Below are positions 1,139 to 21,757 of a DNA stretch of 23,848 nucleotides, piece by piece. The DNA comes from a virus. Position 1 is the first letter of the stretch, and every line of letters starts with the position of its first letter. Location: positions 1 through 23,848 of IMG/VR virus record IMGVR_UViG_3300050014_000157; one strand, given 5' to 3'. The translations under genes and the position numbers were made by a program. The notes below the pieces were generated by a model. That model had not been told where the DNA came from, did not search any database, and worked only from the letters and a program-made list of their open reading frames with translations.

Positions 1139-3181
1139 TTATATACTAATAAATAAATCAGTTCCATCAAACTCTATTGTTCCAGCGACTGCAGTTGTTA
1201 GATTAGTTCCTGCAACAAATTTTAATGGAGCTAAAGTTGTGGTACCTGTTGCTAATGTTTGAAGACCAGTGAATGTATTCGCTACTAGACTCGCTTTCAA
1301 AAGTAATGCGTCATAAACGGAGTTTCCACTAGGAGCAATAGTTGTGTGTCCATCTGTAATAGAATCTTCTACTTGAGAAACAATATCAGATGTCATTGCT
1401 ACTGTTCCGTCTTTGGCTGGGAAGGTAGCAGTATATGAAGTTGCAGAAGTATTTGCTGTAGTTAAGTTTGTAGTTCCAGTAGAAGTTCCTTTTACAAGTA
1501 GTTTATCCTTAGTGAATGTTTTAGTTTCAGTTACACTTTGTGCTATTCCTAATAACATATCACCATTACCTGTTCCTTTTGCATTAAGTTGTGCTTGAAT
1601 ACCAGAAGTAACTCCCTTAACATAACTTAATTCTGTTAATGATGGGTAAGTTGCTGTTGCGAGAGAACCAAGTGTATTAGTTCCACTCCAGTAAGTAAGT
1701 TCATTAGCAACTCCTGTTCCTACTGATGTTAAGTAAGTTGAATTATCAAAACTAATAACAGTTCCATTTCCTTTTAAAAAGCCTGTTCCGTTAGTAGTAG
1801 TTCCAGTTGTAATATTGTCAAAAGTGAAATCTCTTGCTGGTAATATGTTTGTGTAAGATGTAGCAGAAGTATTAGCAACTGAAATAGTATTAACTCCAGT
1901 ACTTGTACCCTTCATCGCTAACATGTCTTTATCAAATGTTTTTAATCCTGTAACAGATTGAGAAGCATTCAAAACCATATCTCCACCTCCAGCAGTAACA
2001 GCACTCCAAGCACCATTTTTTCTTCCATAAGTATTTCCATCAGAAGGAGCATCAGTTAAATAAGAGCCTGCTACTTGAAAATATGCTGTATCATGTCCAT
2101 CTAATAAATCTGAATCGGCAGCCTTAGCTCCTATTCCCAAGTAAAGCAAATCAGCTTGTGTTTTTGTTGAGTAAGCAGAAAGGTCAGTTGCATCAGCACT
2201 TAATACTCCTGAACCATTAATAGATAATCTAGTTCCAACTTTAATTCCTCCTAAAACAGAAGCACTAGCAGTTGGTAATGAATATGGAGTTGGATTAGTA
2301 TTTGTAATAACTAATTTATCAGCATCTCCACCAGTACCCTCTGAAAGAGTAATACCAGTTCCAGCTACTGTCTTAGCACCAAGATAACCAGCAGAAGTAT
2401 CAGCAGCATCATACTTTACTTTTTCATCAGAATCGGTAGTTGTATAAAACTCTAATCCAGTTGCACTTCCATTAACTCTTACTCCTTTTCCTGCTGCACT
2501 TGCATAACTATTAGGAACATCGGTTAATTCTGTAAATTTAGTAACACCACCAGCAACTCCCACTAAAGGATTGCCAGGTGTTCCATCTCCAGTTATGGTT
2601 ACTCCGTCTGTAGTTGCTTTAGATAATCCACCACCGTGCCATCTTAAATCAGCCATATTTGGCTTTCCCTGAATATCGTTGTAGTTTATTTGTTTAGAAA
2701 GAGATTTAACTCCACCTTTCAAAACTTTTAAATCTAAAACATCTTCTAAGGTATTTAACTTAGTGGCAATAGATTCTGGTGTTTCTGGTTCAGCATTTTG
2801 TCCATCTTCTCCTGGTTTACCTGGCATACCTGGTATTCCTTGGTCTCCTTTCTCTCCATCTTTATAATCTACCCCCTTGACAGGAGTAGCCATTTGTATT
2901 AGAGTATGTGCTTCATCATTAGTGAAGTAATCAACACCTTTAACTGGTTTGGCTCGTGAAACTATTGTATCTACTTCTTGAGAAGTAAAATAGTCTTTTC
3001 CTTTAATAGGTGTATATCCAGGTTCTCCTGTTTCTCCCTTATCACCTTTTAGTTTTTCAACTCCATCTACCCTAATTAAATGTTTATCAAGTTTTTCTTG
3101 TAAACTTAAAGCCTCCTCATATTGAGCTAATTGAGGATTAAGATTGAATAACTTTCTTTTAAGAAGCTTTTTAGCATCCAT
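1139..3181 (-). CDS. Tail fibre protein with collagen-like repeats
   Basis: This 680-residue protein has clear fibre architecture. Residues 10-45 are charged and probably coiled. Collagen-like Gly-X-Y stretches lie at about 46-56 and 107-128, with a thrice-repeated KGxDY unit (near 60, 81 and 102) between and before them. The remainder is a long beta-rich shaft of G/T/S/N repeats. A unit of about 51 residues starting GDM(V/L)L occurs twice, at about 400-451 and 540-591, sharing SVT..KTF.KD..L.KGTSTG and ANTSATSYT. No peptidase or chaperone domain is visible at the C-terminus. It probably forms a trimeric fibre for host adsorption. It is followed by the HNH gene and preceded one base away by a small beta-rich protein. 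Confidence 0.85.
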   Translation of the reverse strand: MDAKKLLKRKLFNLNPQLAQYEEALSLQEKLDKHLIRVDGVEKLKGDKGETGEPGYTPIKGKDYFTSQEVDTIVSRAKPVKGVDYFTNDEAHTLIQMATPVKGVDYKDGEKGDQGIPGMPGKPGEDGQNAEPETPESIATKLNTLEDVLDLKVLKGGVKSLSKQINYNDIQGKPNMADLRWHGGGLSKATTDGVTITGDGTPGNPLVGVAGGVTKFTELTDVPNSYASAAGKGVRVNGSATGLEFYTTTDSDEKVKYDAADTSAGYLGAKTVAGTGITLSEGTGGDADKLVITNTNPTPYSLPTASASVLGGIKVGTRLSINGSGVLSADATDLSAYSTKTQADLLYLGIGAKAADSDLLDGHDTAYFQVAGSYLTDAPSDGNTYGRKNGAWSAVTAGGGDMVLNASQSVTGLKTFDKDMLAMKGTSTGVNTISVANTSATSYTNILPARDFTFDNITTGTTTNGTGFLKGNGTVISFDNSTYLTSVGTGVANELTYWSGTNTLGSLATATYPSLTELSYVKGVTSGIQAQLNAKGTGNGDMLLGIAQSVTETKTFTKDKLLVKGTSTGTTNLTTANTSATSYTATFPAKDGTVAMTSDIVSQVEDSITDGHTTIAPSGNSVYDALLLKASLVANTFTGLQTLATGTTTLAPLKFVAGTNLTTAVAGTIEFDGTDLFISI

Positions 3182-6102: not shown

Positions 6103-6741
6103 TTAATTAACTAACTTCTTTTTATAATTTTCCCAAACTTTGTCTGGGTCTAAACCACGTTTCTTTAAATCTGCAATCTGTTCTTTTGTCCACTTGGATG
6201 TTTTTACTTCCACCTCGTCTCCACCAGAACTATCAGGCATATTTGAGATTTGTGATTTATTTTTAGCTGCTATTTTAAGTTCCTCATTTTGTTTGAGAAT
6301 CTTTTTCTTGTTAGCCATCGCCATAGCATCTTCTAGGTCAGCTTGAATATCACTATTAGATGTACCACTTTTAATAATTTTATTATCATAGTACCACTTA
6401 ATAAGATTCTTCTCACCTGCGTTAGAAGTCAAGGAGTCTAAGACAGTTTCAACTGTAGGTTTAATTGATGTAGTGGCTAAGGTAGCAATTTGCTCTCTTA
6501 GTGCTTTCATTTCTTCAAACAACTTTGTATCTCTATCAACTGTGTCGTCTTCAATCTTTCCTTTAGCAATCAAGAGTCCCTTTTTATAGTTATCTCTTTC
6601 ATTTTCAAGGATTGCATTTTTGGCAACCAAGTCTTTCAACTCACTATCGTAGTCAATATCAGCAACTTGACTTTCTTCTTCAACTGATTCTTCCTCAACT
6701 GGAGCAGGTTGAGCATTTAACTCCAATTCTTTTTCTTCCAT
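6103..6741 (-). CDS. Capsid scaffolding protein
   Basis: This 212-residue, highly charged protein is predicted to be almost wholly helical. An acidic N-terminus (residues 1-35, PVEEESVEEESQVADIDYDS) is followed by a coiled-coil-like region (35-100, LKDLVAKNAILENERDNYKK onward), a linker with a D/S/G-rich patch near 165-180, and a basic, helical C-terminus (WTKEQIADLKKRGLDPDKVW). This is the profile of phage scaffold proteins, whose basic C-terminus binds the capsid subunit. It precedes the decoration-like and capsid genes. No maturation protease fused to it is seen. Its leader contains a 72-base imperfect hairpin. Confidence 0.78.
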   Translation of the reverse strand: MEEKELELNAQPAPVEEESVEEESQVADIDYDSELKDLVAKNAILENERDNYKKGLLIAKGKIEDDTVDRDTKLFEEMKALREQIATLATTSIKPTVETVLDSLTSNAGEKNLIKWYYDNKIIKSGTSNSDIQADLEDAMAMANKKKILKQNEELKIAAKNKSQISNMPDSSGGDEVEVKTSKWTKEQIADLKKRGLDPDKVWENYKKKLVN

Positions 6742-6784
6742 TTATTTTAAAACGGGTTTAATGAGTCCGTTCCCTCTTAGCTGA

Positions 6785-6856
6785 GTGGCTAGAGTCCAGA
6801 TATAGAATCAAACAATAAACGCTAAAATTGTCAACCTATACCTGGAATCTAACCAC
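6785..6856 (-). promoter_or_regulatory. Long imperfect inverted repeat in the scaffold gene leader
   Basis: The 21-base arms 6785-6805 and 6836-6856 pair along their whole length with one mismatch and two G-U wobbles. The 30-base loop can form a further ACAAT/ATTGT stem. On the leftward transcript the 3' arm can instead pair with downstream sequence (CTCTAGC with GCTAAGAG, bulged A), so two structures exclude each other. The 123-base gap that contains it is the longest non-coding gap inside the virion operon. The same stretch includes TTGACA (6833-6828), but no convincing -10 at normal spacing. Confidence 0.7.
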
Positions 6857-6864
6857 CCAAATTA

Positions 6865-8233: not shown

Positions 8234-8557
8234 TTATTTTTTCTTATTAAAATTATTTCTTACTGCTATTAACATTCCTTCTCTATTGGTTTTATTTGTA
8301 AATCCACCAATTTTATCTATTTCACTTTTAAAATGTATATCTAGATAATTAACAATAGCCATTTGTGCTTCTGCAATATGCTCTACTGTTCTTTCTATTC
8401 CATTGAGTCTTTGCCCAATCCTTAAATCACAAATTGTTTCTTCAAGGTCTTTAACTAAAATATTATTAGTTTCTACCATTTCTCTTTGTCCCATAGACAT
8501 ATAACAAGAGATAGAAATTAGTATTAACCAGATTGTTATTAATATTTCAAACATCAT
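8234..8557 (-). CDS. Small membrane-anchored protein
   Basis: This 107-residue protein has one clear N-terminal hydrophobic segment (FEILITIWLILISISCYMS, residues 3-21) and a soluble, helical remainder (about 25-75 looks coiled-coil-like). It is probably inserted in a membrane with the C-terminus soluble. It overlaps the portal stop by four bases (ATGATG over TGA) and the ATG is preceded by CAACAACGCT. Phage genes of this type in head operons are usually uncharacterised; a lysis-accessory (spanin- or Rz-like) role is conceivable but has no specific support. Confidence 0.6.
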   Translation of the reverse strand: MMFEILITIWLILISISCYMSMGQREMVETNNILVKDLEETICDLRIGQRLNGIERTVEHIAEAQMAIVNYLDIHFKSEIDKIGGFTNKTNREGMLIAVRNNFNKKK

Positions 8558-10560
8558 AGCGTTGTTGTTGGGGCTGATTGCGGTAATGCCTCTGATAAAG
8601 CCTCTACAGGACTTTTACCTGATTGCCTACCTTGAATCGGACCCTGATTTTTTATAGCGTTCTTATTAAAATACTTGTCTGGGTTCTTTTTAGATTGTGG
8701 ATATGCACCTAATAAGAACTCCTTTGTTACTTCTTCTTGGTCTAATAAAGGATTCATAATCGCTCTATCATACTCCTCTAATTTAAATGCTTTCTCCATT
8801 TCTTCACTCATTGGGTTAAGTATATCTGGACTAATTGTCGCTGTATATTTAATTTTCCTTATAAGTGATGGATTAACTTTAAATAGTTCAGTCTTTGAAG
8901 AAGGTCCTCCTTGTTCCTTTAGAATATCGTATGATTGTGACATCATTTCTTCGGGAGGTATTACTCCCTCTGGCATATTCATATCGAACTTAATCTTTCT
9001 AGTTCTATTCTTTCCTCCAGACATCTTGTCGTGTAAGAAGAATGTTTTATATGTTAGTTCACTATTTGCTGTTATATCACTAGCTTCAGCTAAGGTTAAG
9101 TATTGTAGAATATCTCCTAGTCTCAATTTACCAAATGCTCTAACGTGTCCTGCAATCATCTTTACAAACAATCCTAGTACAGTTGCGGCATTTTGTTCTT
9201 GACGACTAATCTGATAAGCTGTAGTATCTCCACCTTGGTCTGCACCTTGCATTATAGGCTCTACACTTCCAGATGAGATTGATTCCTCAACCTTGAATAG
9301 TGTATTCATACCAGATGTCAAGTTGATACTTGGCATTATTTGTTGTAGTTTTGCATTCGGGTCAGATAAGGTTGTAACACCTCCTGGGATAATAACACTT
9401 GAGTTAATTTCCTCTCCTCCAATGTTTGCCATTGGTGGCATAAGTGTTAAATAAGTTCCATCTACTATCATTGGGTAAAGAGTATTTACCAACTTAGCTT
9501 CTGGACCCATATGGAACGCTAGGGACTTACCATAGAAGCATCTTCCTTCATCAAATGCTGAGTAGAAGAACTTGTCAAATGGATACATCTTGTCATTCCT
9601 TGGGTTTGGGTTGTCAGCATCTGTTAACAGAACTCCATTAACCATTATAACCTTTAGGTCATCACTCTTTCTCCAGAAGGTAACTTCTTCCACCATATAC
9701 TGACGCATATTAGTATCATATACATCGTAGAAGGTCTGATTAGCATCGTTGTAGACTATTTGAATGTTCGGTTTAACATACTTGAAGTTTGGATACTTTA
9801 TTTCATATTGAGCACGAGCTAGAGAATAAGCCTTTACCTTTCTAAGAAGTAACCACCCTTGCTTCTGTATATCTTCTTCATAGAAGTTCTCAATGTATAA
9901 TTGGTCAACGGGTATAATCTCATCTACGAATCCAGATAGATTTTCATCCAGGATTTTCTCAGTCGTCCACTTACCGTTGACTTTCTCTCTCTTAACTTCC
10001 CTGTAGGTCTCTACATAATCAGTATGTACGATAGATGCTGGACTCCATAAGGCTGTTATAACTGCATTTAATGCTAACTTATTATAGTTAGATTGGTCAG
10101 CTGCCCATTCCATAAGAGATTCCAACACTGTTGCTGTTTCCACTTCTTCATCATTATTTTGATTGTAAGCAAATACCTTAGGGAATAATAGTCTAGCTGT
10201 AGCGTGAGCTGCAATAGACATAATCTTATTCCTAATAATAGGTTTCATTGCATTACTTCTCCACCCATTAATTTCGTCTCCCTCAAGAGAATCTCCATCA
10301 TTAGGCTGATAAGTGTTAAATCCCATCTTATCAATCGTGTTTCTTGAGATAAGTGATAGGTCATTAAACTCTCTACGAGGCTTAAACATATTGACGTGTC
10401 CAAGAGTGAACGCTCTCAATATTTCTTGACGCATATCCTTCTCATCTCCATCAGGTTGATAGAGTGATTTTTCAGATAGAACATCTCCTTTCTTGTTAAT
10501 CTCTGGTTTTAAGAAATCAACTTCGGATAGGTCTTTAGAATTTGTTGTTAATATTGACAC
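8554..10560 (-). CDS. Phage portal protein
   Basis: This 668-residue protein directly follows the large terminase, as portal proteins normally do, and is long enough for the portal family of podo- and siphophage types. It has a helical N-terminus, a wing rich in beta segments (YREVKREKVNGKWTTEKILD, VDEIIPVDQLYIENFYEEDI), and a central helical region (GEEINSSVIIPGGV, MQGADQGGDTTAYQISRQEQ) resembling the portal stem and clip. The C-terminus is polar and probably disordered (QGRQSGKSPVEAL). The start codon is GTG: the reading frame opens GTG TCA ATA TTA one base after the TerL TAA. The portal forms the dodecameric DNA channel at the capsid vertex. Confidence 0.85.
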   Translation of the reverse strand: MSILTTNSKDLSEVDFLKPEINKKGDVLSEKSLYQPDGDEKDMRQEILRAFTLGHVNMFKPRREFNDLSLISRNTIDKMGFNTYQPNDGDSLEGDEINGWRSNAMKPIIRNKIMSIAAHATARLLFPKVFAYNQNNDEEVETATVLESLMEWAADQSNYNKLALNAVITALWSPASIVHTDYVETYREVKREKVNGKWTTEKILDENLSGFVDEIIPVDQLYIENFYEEDIQKQGWLLLRKVKAYSLARAQYEIKYPNFKYVKPNIQIVYNDANQTFYDVYDTNMRQYMVEEVTFWRKSDDLKVIMVNGVLLTDADNPNPRNDKMYPFDKFFYSAFDEGRCFYGKSLAFHMGPEAKLVNTLYPMIVDGTYLTLMPPMANIGGEEINSSVIIPGGVTTLSDPNAKLQQIMPSINLTSGMNTLFKVEESISSGSVEPIMQGADQGGDTTAYQISRQEQNAATVLGLFVKMIAGHVRAFGKLRLGDILQYLTLAEASDITANSELTYKTFFLHDKMSGGKNRTRKIKFDMNMPEGVIPPEEMMSQSYDILKEQGGPSSKTELFKVNPSLIRKIKYTATISPDILNPMSEEMEKAFKLEEYDRAIMNPLLDQEEVTKEFLLGAYPQSKKNPDKYFNKNAIKNQGPIQGRQSGKSPVEALSEALPQSAPTTTL

Positions 10561-12563: not shown

Positions 12564-12917
12564 TTATTTTATTAACTTTTCTAATCTTCTAACTATTGAT
12601 TCTTCTACTATATTTATTTGTTCTTGAGTAGTAAACCTACTCTTGGCTAAGTCGTATAAGTCTGCTAGAATTAAGTGTATAGTTTCGTGCTTAGCAGAAC
12701 CTCTTGGGTCAATATATTGAGCAACTTCATCATCTAGTTCTTCTGCTATAGATATATTAGATACCCTCCCTTCATTATTATAGTGATTGTGAGCGAACTC
12801 ATTATTTAATTTGAACTTATCAACATATATTTTCCAGTCACTTAATCCAAATTCTTTTTGATAATGATATACCCACTTCTTAAATTCTTCTAGCTGTTTT
12901 AGCGTTATTTTCTTCAT
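12564..12917 (-). CDS. Small putative zinc metallopeptidase-like protein (HETIH)
   Basis: This 117-residue protein carries the HExxH zinc-binding signature HETIH at residues 77-81, in the helical context GSAKHETIHLILADLYDLA, and an acidic EE pair at 105-106 that could supply a third ligand. It is small compared with true proteases, closer to SprT-like or phage-encoded minimal metallopeptidase domains. The preceding region (EFGLSDWKIYVDKFKLNNEF) is typical of strands ahead of such a helix. Activity and substrate are unknown. It abuts the basic-protein gene and lies two genes upstream of TerS. Confidence 0.65.
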   Translation of the reverse strand: MKKITLKQLEEFKKWVYHYQKEFGLSDWKIYVDKFKLNNEFAHNHYNNEGRVSNISIAEELDDEVAQYIDPRGSAKHETIHLILADLYDLAKSRFTTQEQINIVEESIVRRLEKLIK

Positions 12918-13163
12918 TTATTTGCACTTTTTAGAAGTTCTCTTTTTAGATACTTTCTTTTCTTTCTTGGCTACCTTCTTCATCTTCTTCTTAGCTGGAG
13001 AATAAACATTAGTCTTTCCTCCTTCGGGTCCATTCTTGATTACCCTACCTCCTATCTTGAATCCATTCTTAGCGGCAGATTCTGCCTTAGATGGAAGCTT
13101 ATAAGGTTTAACAGGGGTTGACGAAGCTGTAGTATATGGTTTAGTATTAATTAGATTTTGCAT
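12918..13163 (-). CDS. Small lysine-rich basic protein
   Basis: This 81-residue protein has a proline-, serine- and alanine-containing N-terminal half and an extremely basic C-terminus (KKKMKKVAKKEKKVSKKRTS). It is probably disordered and could bind DNA or RNA, for example as a packaged DNA-condensing protein, but this is inferred from charge alone. It overlaps the upstream HEEEH gene by 17 bases, and its stop codon immediately precedes the next ATG. Confidence 0.6.
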   Translation of the reverse strand: MQNLINTKPYTTASSTPVKPYKLPSKAESAAKNGFKIGGRVIKNGPEGGKTNVYSPAKKKMKKVAKKEKKVSKKRTSKKCK

Positions 13164-14270: not shown

Positions 14271-14745
14271 TAGTAGTTGGCTCATCTGGATTAAGGCTTT
14301 GTGCACGGTTTGCATCATATTACCAATCTATTACAAGTATTTTCTTAATAGCTAATAACCTATCAATGCCTTTTAAAAGGCTTGTAAACACTAATGTTAA
14401 CCAATGATACCCTCTTAAAAGATCAGTATTCCTACTACTTCCTTTCCTATTGCTATTCCTTGTATCTCTTATATCATTAGTTCTTTATTTGGACGGCGAA
14501 AATGTATTCTATTTCCTTTTATCTATTACGTTTCTTGTTGTCTATTGCCTTCCTTTAATACTTGTTTTTATTCTATGTTTATTTAATGGAATTATAGCTA
14601 TTATAATGGAATAGTTTAATGTTTTATATCTATCTCTTTCTTACTTGATTTTATTAGTTTTATCTTTGGACGGCTTTTTTGTGTAAATTGGGGATAACTC
14701 AAATTGACCCCTATTTTAATCAATGTTTATATAGCTTAATTACTA

Positions 14746-14775
14746 TTGACATTTATACTCTCTTTATGTTATAAG
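14746..14775 (+). promoter_or_regulatory. Rightward promoter, TTGACA with TTATAA/TATAAG -10
   Basis: TTGACA (14746-14751) is followed after 17 bases by TTATAA, or after 18 by TATAAG. It points toward the small-gene island beginning at 14874. Confidence 0.7.
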
Positions 14776-14787
14776 TATTTGAAGTAC

Positions 14788-14815
14788 TTGACAATGCTTT
14801 TGTGTGTGATATGAT
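14788..14815 (+). promoter_or_regulatory. Rightward promoter, TTGACA-16-TATGAT
   Basis: TTGACA (14788-14793), 16-base spacer, TATGAT (14810-14815). Expected start is near 14822, giving a 50-base leader that contains a perfect 6-bp hairpin, before the ATG at 14874. It is tandem with the promoter 42 bases upstream. Confidence 0.65.
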
Positions 14816-14843
14816 TAGAGTATAAGAAAGTTAATTAAAAAAG

Positions 14844-14861
14844 TCCTTGATACTACAAGGA
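14844..14861 (+). promoter_or_regulatory. Leader hairpin upstream of the first small gene
   Basis: TCCTTG (14844-14849) pairs perfectly with CAAGGA (14856-14861) around a six-base loop. It ends 12 bases before the ATG at 14874 and hides the only AAGGA, Shine-Dalgarno-like, sequence in the leader. Confidence 0.5.
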
Positions 14862-14873
14862 TAATAAATACAA

Positions 14874-14969
14874 ATGACATTTAAAGAAGCATACGAACAC
14901 GATAAACATTTAGATGAGATTGGAAGCGATGAGCCAAGAATACTGTTTACAATCACAATAACAAAGTAG
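14874..14969 (+). CDS. Very small hypothetical protein (31 aa)
   Basis: The peptide starts MTFKEAYEHDKHLDEIGSDE and ends RILFTITITK with a TAG stop. It follows two tandem promoters and a leader with an AT-rich ATAATAAATACAA before the ATG, as for its neighbours. Function is unknown. Support is its position, start context and normal codon use; the short length limits certainty. Confidence 0.5.
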   Translation: MTFKEAYEHDKHLDEIGSDEPRILFTITITK

Positions 14970-14978
14970 TTTCATAGT

Positions 14979-15008
14979 CTTGCCATTAAGTAGTATATTA
15001 ATGGTAAG
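14979..15008 (+). promoter_or_regulatory. 10-bp hairpin between the first two small genes
   Basis: CTTGCCATTA (14979-14988) pairs with TAATGGTAAG (14999-15008) with one G-U pair and a 10-base loop. No U-run follows. It is a probable mRNA processing or stability element. Confidence 0.5.
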
Positions 15009-15061
15009 TAATGAGATTATAATAAGCCTTAATCCTTAACTGGACGGCAAGAATAAAAAGT

Positions 15062-15232
15062 ATGACAATAGAATTTTATAAAACTAATGTATACGGTAAT
15101 GAAACAATGTATATTAAAGATGAGGAATTGAAGCAAGTGGTCAGAAGAATATCAGGAAGAATAACATTGAAAGAAACTGATATAATCGCTTTTGAAAAGT
15201 TAGGAATACAATTTGTAGAAGTTAAGAAGTAA
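15062..15232 (+). CDS. Small conserved phage-type protein (56 aa)
   Basis: The product starts MTIEFYKTNVYGNETMYIKD and ends FEKLGIQFVEVKK. The YGN..MY..D opening and a C-terminal EKLGIQFVEV element resemble a small uncharacterised protein seen in many phages and bacteria, so I consider it real. It follows a TGGACGGC motif by 13 bases. No catalytic residues are evident. Confidence 0.7.
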   Translation: MTIEFYKTNVYGNETMYIKDEELKQVVRRISGRITLKETDIIAFEKLGIQFVEVKK

Positions 15233-15276: not shown

Positions 15277-15376
15277 TAGTTTATTAAAGGTCAATTAAAA
15301 AATAATAATATATTTACTTGGACGGCGTTCTGGCAACCATTGGAAGCTGGAAAACGGGCAAGAAGTATAAAATAAA

Positions 15377-15481
15377 ATGACAAGAGAAGAGATAGTTGAA
15401 GAGTTAAAAAGAATAGTTAGCGAAATTGAAGGAGATAGATACACCAGAGAGCAATTAGAGGAGTTGATTAATAATATATAG
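15377..15481 (+). CDS. Very small acidic helical protein (34 aa)
   Basis: The peptide MTREEIVEELKRIVSEIEGD continues to YTREQLEELINNI with a TAG stop. It is predicted as one or two amphipathic helices. It ends two bases before the next ATG, in a run of tightly packed small genes, which supports its being real. Function is unknown. Confidence 0.6.
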   Translation: MTREEIVEELKRIVSEIEGDRYTREQLEELINNI

Positions 15482-15483
15482 TT

Positions 15484-15600
15484 ATGAATTATCAAAAAAA
15501 GTATTTAAAAGCAAAAAGGGCTTGTCAATTATGGGTGTTAGTTTGGGCGGTCACAGTTATAGTTTTCGTAAGTATAATAAATAATTTAGTTAATATATAA
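15484..15600 (+). CDS. Small single-pass membrane protein (38 aa)
   Basis: A basic N-terminus (MNYQKKYLKAKRACQ) is followed by one hydrophobic helix (LWVLVWAVTVIVFVSIINNL). It is likely an inner-membrane peptide with its N-terminus in the cytoplasm. It is packed tightly between neighbours. Function is unknown. Confidence 0.6.
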   Translation: MNYQKKYLKAKRACQLWVLVWAVTVIVFVSIINNLVNI

Positions 15601-18932: not shown

Positions 18933-18961
18933 TTGACAACTAAAGATTAGTATGATAGAAT
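18933..18961 (+). promoter_or_regulatory. Rightward promoter, TTGACA-17-TAGAAT with extended -10
   Basis: TTGACA (18933-18938), a 17-base spacer and TAGAAT (18956-18961), preceded by TG at the extended -10 position (TATGATAGAAT). It begins just after the DUF6745-type stop codon. It shares TTGACAACTAAA and TATGATA.AAT with the promoter at 21729, suggesting the same class. Expected start is near 18968, right at a cloverleaf-like leader. Confidence 0.85.
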
Positions 18962-19238: not shown

Positions 19239-19367
19239 ATGCCAATAGAAAAATTAAAAAAACATAAACACTTTGGAGATACAGAAATGGGAATATTGAT
19301 TGGTCGTGCAATTATTATATTGGCAATGCTTTCTCCATTATTAGCAATCGTAATATGTATGAAATAA
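19239..19367 (+). CDS. Small membrane protein (42 aa)
   Basis: A basic N-terminus (MPIEKLKKHKHFGDTEMG) precedes one hydrophobic segment (ILIGRAIIILAMLSPLLAIV). It begins six bases after the upstream stop. The TAA overlaps the first arm of a hairpin (TAATCC/GGATTA) that opens the structured RNA region. Function is unknown. Confidence 0.6.
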   Translation: MPIEKLKKHKHFGDTEMGILIGRAIIILAMLSPLLAIVICMK

Positions 19368-19681
19368 TCCCTATTTAGTGGATTATCTCCTAGACATTAC
19401 AACTAGTACAGCGACCTTGAGCAAAAAGGTAATACCCTGTGGCTACCGAGGGGACAAAATTCGGTTAACGAGCTGGTTGTGAACAATACACGACGTAAAC
19501 AAGTATCGTTGTTTGTCTAGGCGTTAGTTCATTAAGTTAGTGGATAGTATTCTGGGGTGGTGTCAATACTTAACATAAGTTGCATCGCAACGTCATAGGG
19601 GGTAATTGCCCTAAAGAGTATCTAGTACTGGATAAATTATCGTTGCCCAATTAGCTGAGCGTTAAAATAGCTCCCCCAGAA
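19365..19681 (+). ncRNA. Candidate structured non-coding RNA with two closed multi-hairpin domains
   Basis: No gene fits here, yet the sequence is less AT-rich than its surroundings and full of pairing. Domain 1 is closed by CCTAGACA (19389-19396) with TGTCTAGG (19514-19521). It contains ACAG/CTGT with ACCTT/AAGGT (19408-19440), ACCGA/TCGGT (19445-19465), GTTGTG/CACGAC (19476-19494) and AAACAA/TTGTTT (19497-19514). Domain 2 is closed by TTCTGGGG (19550-19557) with CCCCAGAA (19674-19681). It contains GTTGC/GCAAC (19579-19591), TAGGG/CCCTA (19596-19613), TATC/GATA or AGTA/TACT near 19617-19634, and GAGC/GCTC (19657-19673). A small TAATCC/GGATTA hairpin precedes both. It could be an independent RNA or a long leader of the DGR-target gene. 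I do not recognise the class. Confidence 0.72.
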
Positions 19682-19716
19682 CAGTGTTCATTATAAGTTA
19701 AATAAATAAAATAAAT

Positions 19717-20214
19717 ATGGACAAACAAACAATCTTAAACAAAATAAGCGAATTACTAGACCAATATGAAGTACCTAATTCTATCGGTAAATTACAATTT
19801 GAAGACCATAACTTTAAGGTAGATTCAACTGGGTGGAAAAAAATAGTTGTTGATGACGACGCATATTTGGAAAACGATAAGGAAGACATCTGGGAATTTT
19901 TAGACGGTGAATGTAGTGGAGAGCAATTATTTACTCAAACATCTGCCTTAAGAGAAACCAAAAAAGCTGGTAAAAGAATGCCAACAGATGAGGAATTTAA
20001 TGAGATATTAAAGACTAAAGATGATTTGCCTAATATAGTTTATGCTGGTTACCGTCATTATGTCGGTGGTTCTTTCGCTAATCGTGGCACGTACTCGTAC
20101 TTGTGGTCTAGTTCTTCGGCGTTGTATCGTGCCTTGTATTACACAGAGTCTAGAGTCAGCCGTTACTCCTATTCTGCCGCCTCTGGCTTCTCCGTTCGTT
20201 GTCTTCAGGACTGA
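19717..20214 (+). CDS. DGR target (variable) protein, C-type-lectin / FGE-like fold
   Basis: In this 165-residue protein the N-terminus (1-75) is acidic and helical. From about residue 77 it follows the Fib_succ_major/FGE-sulfatase-like pattern used by DGR targets: RETKKAGKRMPTDEEFNEIL, then VYAGYRHYVGGSF (109-120), NRG (122-124), LWSSSS (129-134) and a terminal GFSVRCLQD (157-165). Between these anchors the codons for Y, S, R, A, L and T sit where related proteins have Asn-rich runs. By hand count, A makes up 24 of the last 174 bases, against 25 of the preceding 60, the footprint expected of adenine-directed mutagenesis. The protein would be a displayed, diversified ligand-binding domain. 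No reverse transcriptase lies in the window. Confidence 0.85.
   Translation: MDKQTILNKISELLDQYEVPNSIGKLQFEDHNFKVDSTGWKKIVVDDDAYLENDKEDIWEFLDGECSGEQLFTQTSALRETKKAGKRMPTDEEFNEILKTKDDLPNIVYAGYRHYVGGSFANRGTYSYLWSSSSALYRALYYTESRVSRYSYSAASGFSVRCLQD
20041..20214 (+). other. Predicted DGR variable region (VR)
   Basis: The VR covers the A-poor 3' end of the target gene, with anchors GGTGGTTCTTTC (about 20065) and GGCTTCTCCGTTCG (about 20185). The last 35 bases before the stop have almost no A, as expected for the homing-initiation end. The exact left boundary cannot be set without the template repeat, which I did not find. Confidence 0.65.
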
Positions 20215-20834: not shown

Positions 20835-21473
20835 ATGAAGGAATATCATAAAATAGAAACTATCTTTGAAAGAGATATGGAAGGTAATAAAAAACTCATT
20901 GAGGGTAAGTTTCGTAACCCATTAGTTGAATATCTTAAAGATAATGAGTGGATATTCACAGAGAAAGTTGACGGAACAAATATAAGAGTATTTTGGGACG
21001 GACACAAGGTTTCATTTAATGGAAGAACTGATAATGCTCAAATTCACGGACATTTAGTTGAAAAATTAAATGAATTGTTTATGGGAAGTGTTAATGAGGA
21101 AATATTTGAACAAAAGTTTGGAGAAAATGAAGTAATGTTTTTCGGAGAAGGTTATGGAGCAGGAATACAAAAAGGTGGTGGAGATTACATTGACGAGAAA
21201 GATTTTATTCTATTTGATGTAATGGTTGGTAATATATTTTTAGAAAGAGAAAACATTGAAGAAATAGCAAAATCTTTCAATATAAAATGTGTTCCTATCG
21301 TTCCTATCAAAACTATTAAAGAAGCATTAGATTATGTTAAGGCAAAACCAATTTCAATGATTGGAAAATGTATTAAAGAAAGTGAAGGAGTTGTGGGAAC
21401 TCCGACACAAAGAATAAAAGATTTTAGGGGAAATAGGGTGATAGTGAAGATTAAAGTTGAAGATTTTAACTAA
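20835..21473 (+). CDS. RNA ligase (Rnl2-like nucleotidyltransferase)
   Basis: This 212-residue protein shows all ligase nucleotidyltransferase motifs. Motif I is EKVDGTNIRV with the adenylated lysine K44. A GRTDNA segment follows. Motif III is FFGEGYG (102-108), IIIa is DFILFDVM (123-130), IV is ESEGVVG (182-188) and V is VIVKIK (K205, K207). It would seal 3'-OH/5'-phosphate RNA ends using ATP. Size is close to a stand-alone catalytic domain, shorter than T4 Rnl2 with its C-terminal domain. No polynucleotide kinase is visible nearby. Phages use such ligases to repair cleaved tRNAs or process RNA. An AAGG-containing leader precedes the ATG. Confidence 0.9.
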   Translation: MKEYHKIETIFERDMEGNKKLIEGKFRNPLVEYLKDNEWIFTEKVDGTNIRVFWDGHKVSFNGRTDNAQIHGHLVEKLNELFMGSVNEEIFEQKFGENEVMFFGEGYGAGIQKGGGDYIDEKDFILFDVMVGNIFLERENIEEIAKSFNIKCVPIVPIKTIKEALDYVKAKPISMIGKCIKESEGVVGTPTQRIKDFRGNRVIVKIKVEDFN

Positions 21474-21494: not shown

Positions 21495-21743
21495 ATGCCA
21501 AACAAATCAATAGACCAATTATTTAAATCATTTTGTTTAGTCGGCAAGATTTCTAGTGTCCACGCCGACCAGATAAAGGAACAATTAGAAGAATTTGTAA
21601 AGCAAAGAGATGAAGATGTATCCGAGAAGATATGGCAAATGTTTGACTTAACAGTTGATGATATGCCAGCGTTTCCACCTAAAGAAGTTGATAAGATAGG
21701 ATTAGCATTGGCAATAGGTATTTCAAAGTTGACAACTAAATAA
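21495..21743 (+). CDS. Small helical hypothetical protein
   Basis: This 82-residue protein starts MPNKSIDQLFKSFCLVGKIS and has long helices (HADQIKEQLEEFVKQRDEDV). Its last codons (AAG TTG ACA ACT AAA TAA) encode the -35 element of the 21729 promoter. No family is recognised. Confidence 0.65.
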   Translation: MPNKSIDQLFKSFCLVGKISSVHADQIKEQLEEFVKQRDEDVSEKIWQMFDLTVDDMPAFPPKEVDKIGLALAIGISKLTTK

Positions 21744-21757
21744 TTTTATGATACAAT
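21729..21757 (+). promoter_or_regulatory. Rightward promoter, TTGACA-17-TACAAT with extended -10
   Basis: TTGACA (21729-21734), a 17-base spacer and TACAAT (21752-21757), in the form TATGATACAAT. It is nearly a copy of the 18933 promoter. The expected start, about seven bases past the -10, falls at or next to the A of the ATG at 21764, so the mRNA would be leaderless or nearly so. Confidence 0.85.

Follow-up and report, generated by a model that had tools for sequence, protein, structure and literature searches.

A tandem, stem-framed RNA between co-directional phage genes and the recurrence of its architecture in related phages

Gene context of the noncoding gap

The window, i.e. the whole stretch of 23,848 nucleotides analysed here, is a phage fragment deposited in IMG/VR as an incomplete record (IMGVR_UViG_3300050014_000157). 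Its minus strand carries a terminase, a portal and a major head module, and a block of plus-strand genes occupies the right of the window. The closest named terminases belong mostly to Bacteroidota phages, at 35-45% identity, and further relatives of the enzyme are found in MAGs labelled Microgenomatus, Tenericutes and Mariniphaga; because the relatives span all of these groups, the host is not settled.

A noncoding gap of 349 bases separates a 42-codon ORF, with its stop at 19367, from a gene encoding a 165-aa protein, with its start at 19717. The RNA element described here extends from 19373 to 19693 and is thus embedded in a co-directional gene pair (Table 1). As originally predicted, the gap is richer in G and C than its surroundings: its GC fraction (19369-19716) is 0.39, compared with 0.337 in the window and 0.26-0.37 in the other gaps measured. 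An ORF running through the stretch, which would have spoken against an RNA, was sought and none was found.

The nearest strong promoter-like site lies about 430 bases 5' of the RNA, with two small ORFs in between, and the same stretch is repeated at 21729-21757; no promoter matching at least 10 of 12 positions is present in the 400 nt upstream of the element. On the other side, the spacer leading to the next gene has unpaired probabilities mostly of 0.5-0.99, falling to about 0.2-0.4 at the start codon. It contains no terminator, no Shine-Dalgarno sequence recognisable by eye and, in the minimum free energy (MFE) structure, no pairing to either domain of the element. The similarity of the downstream protein to Fib_succ_major (Pfam E=1.5e-4) is below the family cut-off. 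An RNA ligase gene (Pfam RNA_ligase, PHROG 548) is located on the plus strand at 20835-21473, 1.1 kb 3' of the RNA.

Table 1. Coordinates of the RNA element, its flanking features and the elements of similar architecture in related phages (D1 and D2, first and second domain; positions in the lower five rows refer to the respective phage contigs)
Feature	Position	Strand	Evidence and remarks
Nearest strong promoter-like site, TTGACA-17-TAGAAT, TG extended	18933..18961	+	11/12 match
42-codon ORF, hydrophobic, membrane-type by eye	19239..19367	+	sequence; stop 5 nt before RNA
D1 outer stem, 5' strand AUUUAGUGGAUUA, partner 19525-19537	19373..19385	+	pair probabilities 0.79-1.0
D1 inner closing helix, 5' strand CCUAGACA, partner 19514-19521	19389..19396	+	folding
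D1 core, 117 nt	19397..19513	+	MFE and pair probabilities
D1 inner closing helix, 3' strand UGUCUAGG	19514..19521	+	folding
D1 outer stem, 3' strand UAGUUCAUUAAGU, includes GTTCATTA at 19527	19525..19537	+	folding
D2 outer stem, 5' strand UAGUGGAUA, partner 19685-19693	19538..19546	+	pair probabilities 0.83-1.0
D2 inner closing helix, 5' strand UUCUGGGG, partner 19674-19681	19550..19557	+	folding
D2 core, 116 nt, MFE multibranched	19558..19673	+	folding
D2 inner closing helix, 3' strand CCCCAGAA	19674..19681	+	folding
D2 outer stem, 3' strand UGUUCAUUA, includes GTTCATTA at 19686	19685..19693	+	folding
Spacer, A/U-rich, 23 nt, mostly unpaired, up to next start codon	19694..19716	+	unpaired probabilities
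Downstream gene, 165 aa, putative DGR target	19717..20214	+	weak C-terminal Fib_succ_major match
L243 element	1442-1571		z=-6.09; directly past terminase stop, 16 nt before portal start
L115 element	12848-12996		z=-6.46; 9 nt past stop, 30 nt before start
L134 element	9869-9994	-	
L127 element	8381-8480	-	between two phage genes; encloses tRNA-Phe(AAA)
L245 element	15323-15434		z=-3.69; no Rfam match

Two frames around unrelated cores

The original prediction, made by eye, placed two domains in the gap, each closed by a perfect 8-bp long-range helix (19389-19396 with 19514-19521, and 19550-19557 with 19674-19681). Both helices are exact, and each of their 16 pairs has a probability of 0.82-1.0. 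Either helix makes up the inner half of a frame that is extended outward via a 3x3 internal loop, so that the D1 frame joins 19373-19396 with 19514-19537 and the D2 frame 19538-19557 with 19674-19693. Each internal loop holds one central pair (19387-19523 in D1, 19548-19683 in D2). The outer stem comprises 13 bp in D1, G-U pairs included, and 9 bp in D2, for a total of 22 and 18 frame pairs, respectively. Sequences common to the two domains occur in the outer stems, where TTAGTGGAT (19375, 19537) pairs with GTTCATTA (19527, 19686); the combined pattern has two exact matches in the window and 0.00 in shuffles. The recurrence of GTTCATTA had been noticed before, but its assignment to a position just after each domain has to be corrected, as it forms the 3' strand of the outer stem and lies inside the frame.

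The folding scan was confined to noncoding windows. The region as a whole folds with z=-4.07, and its opposite strand with z=-1.87; the G-U wobbles of the outer stems, which can form on the plus strand only, together with this poorer folding of the opposite strand, indicate that the sense strand is the structured one. D1 and D2 reach z=-5.10 and z=-3.63, and 0/200 shuffles fold as well in the case of either domain. The probability of obtaining such stems by chance was evaluated with a two-segment closing-stem scan on 1000 dinucleotide shuffles of 19368-19716: a stem at least as good as that of D1 was never found, one at least as good as that of D2 was found in four shuffles, and two tandem stems in none. 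When folded alone, the D1 core shows some structure (z=-2.26), and the D2 core has no significant gain in stability over shuffles (z=-0.87). As the cores alone give only modest values, the signal resides mainly in the frames; the two predicted domains are well founded, and the three or four internal hairpins attributed to each are less certain.

The D1 core contains a helix (19397-19407 with 19472-19482) and two hairpins (19414-19418 with 19426-19430, and 19490-19495 with 19507-19512). A possible H-type pseudoknot, read by eye, would pair CCCU (19435-19438) with AGGGG (19449-19453), crossed by ACCGA (19445-19449) with UCGGU (19461-19465), the second helix having a probability of 0.02 in a pseudoknot-free model. 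A common sequence for the two cores was considered and rejected, their similarity being no higher than that of shuffles, and the covariance model of D1 does not detect D2, nor the reverse. D1 and D2 are consequently tandem domains which share a frame and enclose unrelated interiors. Covariation is the recognised criterion of conserved structure (PMC11234323); seemingly compensatory differences between the inner helices of D1 and D2 were not counted as such, because the helices had been found by pairing.

Searches for relatives of the element covered several sequence collections. No homologue was recovered by blastn against phages and plasmids, by an 18-base motif search over IMG/VR, by blastn and nhmmer against up to 2.6 Mb of loci, or by the D1 and D2 covariance models over 1.15 and 0.48 Mb of loci. 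The outer-stem pattern returned 63 stretches from IMG/VR, none with a D1/D2-like fold. The R1 search over 380 genomes from the phylum of a Microgenomatus MAG and the R2 search over nine relatives were negative as well, both with a single-sequence model and hence insensitive, and no homologue was reached through the protein routes (target gene, DUF6745 gene, terminase, RNA ligase). These results do not prove that the element is unique, as the records nearest to the window may fall outside the searched set. In Rfam 15, no family matches the window at or above the gathering score, and at E<=10 the interval 19300-19760 yields only eukaryotic chance matches on the opposite strand. A stable fold is not by itself proof of a functional RNA. 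Taken with the folding statistics, the lack of an ORF and the lack of an Rfam match, the element looks like a real sense-strand, tandem stem-framed RNA that is unclassified, in agreement with the structured RNA originally proposed for this gene-free gap.

Other features of the window were recorded alongside. A further structured noncoding stretch is present at 14690-15062 (+), with z=-3.52. At 6770-6860 (-), just past the stop of a minus-strand gene and ahead of the start of the gene at 6103-6741, lies a second intercistronic hairpin, long and irregular, in which a 1x1 mismatch accompanies 13 + 12 bp (z about -6.5). Moreover, TGGACGGC occurs five times in 1.6 kb, at 14490, 14667, 15041, 15319 and 16062 (all +), against 0.03 copies expected window-wide; two of the copies lie shortly 5' of plus-strand start codons, and any other locus examined has at most two.

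The architecture in related phages

The scan for this architecture took in 288 noncoding gaps, from the window and from related phages, with shuffles for comparison; a whole-contig version of the scan was set aside, since it mixed in coding sequence and repeats. Five closing stems scored at least 39, that of D1 included, where shuffles predict about 0.2, and seven scored at least 33 where they predict 2.0, enrichment figures which are limited by the fact that shuffles are an imperfect model of real intergenic sequence. The enrichment of this architecture in the intergenic gaps of related phages is a new point. One strong apparent stem, at 1342-1483 of L155, was excluded as a near-perfect short tandem repeat (GGTCTA/GGTCTG/GGTCTT).

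In L243, L115, L134 and L127, the last two on the minus strand, the elements begin 0-12 nt past the upstream stop and end 16-39 nt short of the next co-directional start. L243 is the phage with the closest terminase (63%), and its element takes up the larger part of the terminase-portal gap; in the window, these two genes are 2 nt apart, without an element between them. L115 represents the phage with the homologous downstream gene (L002 and L003, see below), but its element precedes another gene. Within this element, two hairpins display complementary UUGGG and CCCAA, a possible kissing pair noted by eye. The elements of different phages have the architecture in common and, L245 excepted, also the position; no sequence is shared, and common descent is therefore not established. 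A long structured leader is found in L028 (284-630), where a long hairpin, a terminator-like hairpin and a pseudoknot domain precede a cysteine-rich gene; its H-type pseudoknot, read by eye, has a textbook-looking arrangement (CGCC/GGCG with GUAUCUC/GAGAUAC).

The L127 frame encloses a genuine tRNA-Phe with anticodon AAA (8393-8467), recognised by Rfam (52.3 bits) and by ARAGORN, with a stem extending beyond the acceptor arm; a frame of this type can therefore surround a stable RNA. It resembles the present element in its intercistronic position and in the extended closing stem, and differs from it in that D1 and D2 have about twice the length and, under normal thresholds, are not recognised as tRNAs. 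That one or both domains might be degenerate or interrupted tRNAs is very improbable. For D2, a cloverleaf-like drawing is possible in which a 7-bp acceptor-like stem, a D-like arm and a T-like arm surround a 51-nt insertion, its T-like loop TTAAAAT matches that of the L127 tRNA, and ARAGORN calls it at a relaxed threshold; at the same threshold, however, 16 of 300 shuffled cores are called (about 5%), and D2 as an interrupted tRNA was rejected on account of this near-chance level. Furthermore, ARAGORN makes no call at default settings, with or without introns, the Rfam tRNA model (RF00005) finds no match at E<=10, and D1 is never called as a spanning tRNA.

The L245 element follows a sigma-70 promoter matching at 12/12 positions (15280-15308) and is itself followed by a terminator-like site (15487-15504); judging from these signals, 15280-15505 is a candidate stand-alone phage small RNA gene. 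The long two-segment closing stem is of similar size to those of D1 and D2, whereas the promoter and terminator-like site of its own set it apart, and sequence similarity to D1 or D2 is undetected.

Proposed processing and protection, and competing roles

The original prediction considered an independent phage RNA, or a leader controlling the diversified gene downstream or the DGR. The last third of the downstream protein is the less conserved part, with 69 identical residues to L003 in positions 1-103 and 28 in positions 104-165, a distribution that fits a DGR target. The RNA, placed 5' of a gene with such a C-terminal third, could in principle serve this gene as a template RNA or homing cofactor. 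However, no reverse transcriptase (RVT_1) is encoded in the window or in 20 relatives, although the window is a fragment and the enzyme may lie elsewhere; no template repeat is found in the window or in the loci tested; and the architecture precedes unrelated genes in other phages, the portal gene included. Moreover, the homologous gene occurs without the RNA in L002 and L003, where an ORF abuts the start codon. No other homologues of the downstream gene were recovered (57% identity by tblastn, with one and the same gene in both contigs), and this phage has an RNA of the same architecture ahead of a different gene. A link of the RNA to protein diversification is thus unsupported, and a role as a DGR component is extremely improbable.

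Other known classes were considered and rejected. A retron msr-msd would be followed directly by a reverse transcriptase, and the gene found there is Fib_succ_major-like. In TIGR arrays, a Tas protein with a Nop domain accompanies dual repeats of 8-12 nt and spacers of 9 nt (PMC12045711); PF01798 is absent from eight records, and the units described here are of about 160 nt. Likewise, no PF07282 was found in eight records for a TnpB/IS605-type guide RNA.

The position of the element, 23 nt 5' of a start codon on the same strand, also suggests a cis-regulatory leader, riboswitch-like or protein-binding, which would respond to a signal and set the translation of the downstream gene. Tandem aptamers are known, and they offer a precedent for two domains ahead of a start codon. 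Tandem riboswitch leaders differ from the present element, in which closing stems are very long, no known aptamer is recognised by Rfam and no expression platform is seen, the terminator being absent and the spacer not predicted to be sequestered; on the last ground a riboswitch class was rejected. Stems of 18-22 pairs would hardly open as a switch, and the closest homologue of the downstream gene has no such element. A leader function is accordingly considered unlikely.

The elements could also be small insertable modules, landing between phage genes and tolerated since they are folded and noncoding. Their presence in one phage and absence at the equivalent junctions of relatives, both between terminase and portal and before the downstream gene, is consistent with this, as is the tandem duplication of the outer stems. 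On the other hand, no TnpB-type protein is encoded in eight records and the elements of different phages share no sequence, which makes mobility quite unlikely.

The main rival, given the tRNA and stand-alone cases, is that the two cores are independent phage small noncoding RNAs, excised from the operon by cleavage in the shared frame and acting in trans on targets of the host or the phage. The same frame around unrelated cores suits an arrangement of cargo and frame, and it agrees with the bona fide tRNA held by the comparable L127 frame, the promoter and terminator-like site of L245 and the partial structure of the D1 core. It is weakened by the D2 core, no more stable than expected, by the lack of a clear promoter or terminator of the element's own in the window, and by the failure of the searches to turn up a homologue of either core, since a conserved small RNA would be expected to have some. 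This explanation is possible, if tentative. More doubtful is a broader proposal, i.e. an undescribed class of phage noncoding RNA, with exchangeable cores set in a standard double-stranded frame, intergenic in one group of phages, either operon-embedded or stand-alone, and in tandem here.

An intercistronic position, long stems with an internal loop, an open A/U-rich start region and the absence of a terminator or switch are together best accommodated by a role in RNA processing. We infer, with a rough probability of 0.4, that the stem-framed RNA processes and protects the downstream mRNA, and that the framed cores are possibly released as small RNAs. The element would form part of a polycistronic phage transcript, in the sense orientation, and its functional part would be the frame rather than the cores. 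A double-strand-specific host nuclease, e.g. RNase III, would cut in or near the frames; the structure left after the cut would protect the 5' end thereby created on the downstream mRNA, and the largely unpaired spacer would keep the region of the next start codon accessible to ribosomes. Both cores may come free in the process. Pre-rRNA processing stems enclose the RNA to be released, much as the frames surround the cores of D1 and D2.

The closest known counterparts are the RNase III sites that separate early genes of phage T7. One of them, R1.1, comprises 60 nt between genes 1.0 and 1.1, with an internal loop of 4/5 nt (PMC6121014); it shares with the present element the intercistronic position and a long stem with an internal loop, but it is a single hairpin, whereas here two tandem frames surround about 117 nt each. 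Cleavage takes place in T7 and is putative here. The minimum target of RNase III is 22 nt (PMC5371410), and in comparison the frames offer 22 pairs in D1 and, slightly short, 18 in D2, each with its 3x3 internal loop. The RNase III reading has its limits: two cores of this length exceed the needs of a simple processing site, and a purely processing role leaves the candidate stand-alone gene of L245 unexplained.

If the element serves mRNA processing only, a T7-like principle would be extended to a group of phages without a model member. Should the pattern of frame and core hold, uncultured phages of this group would punctuate their operons with structured RNA. The pattern would also provide a route to phage noncoding RNAs which are missed by sequence searches, since their position and architecture recur and their sequence does not.
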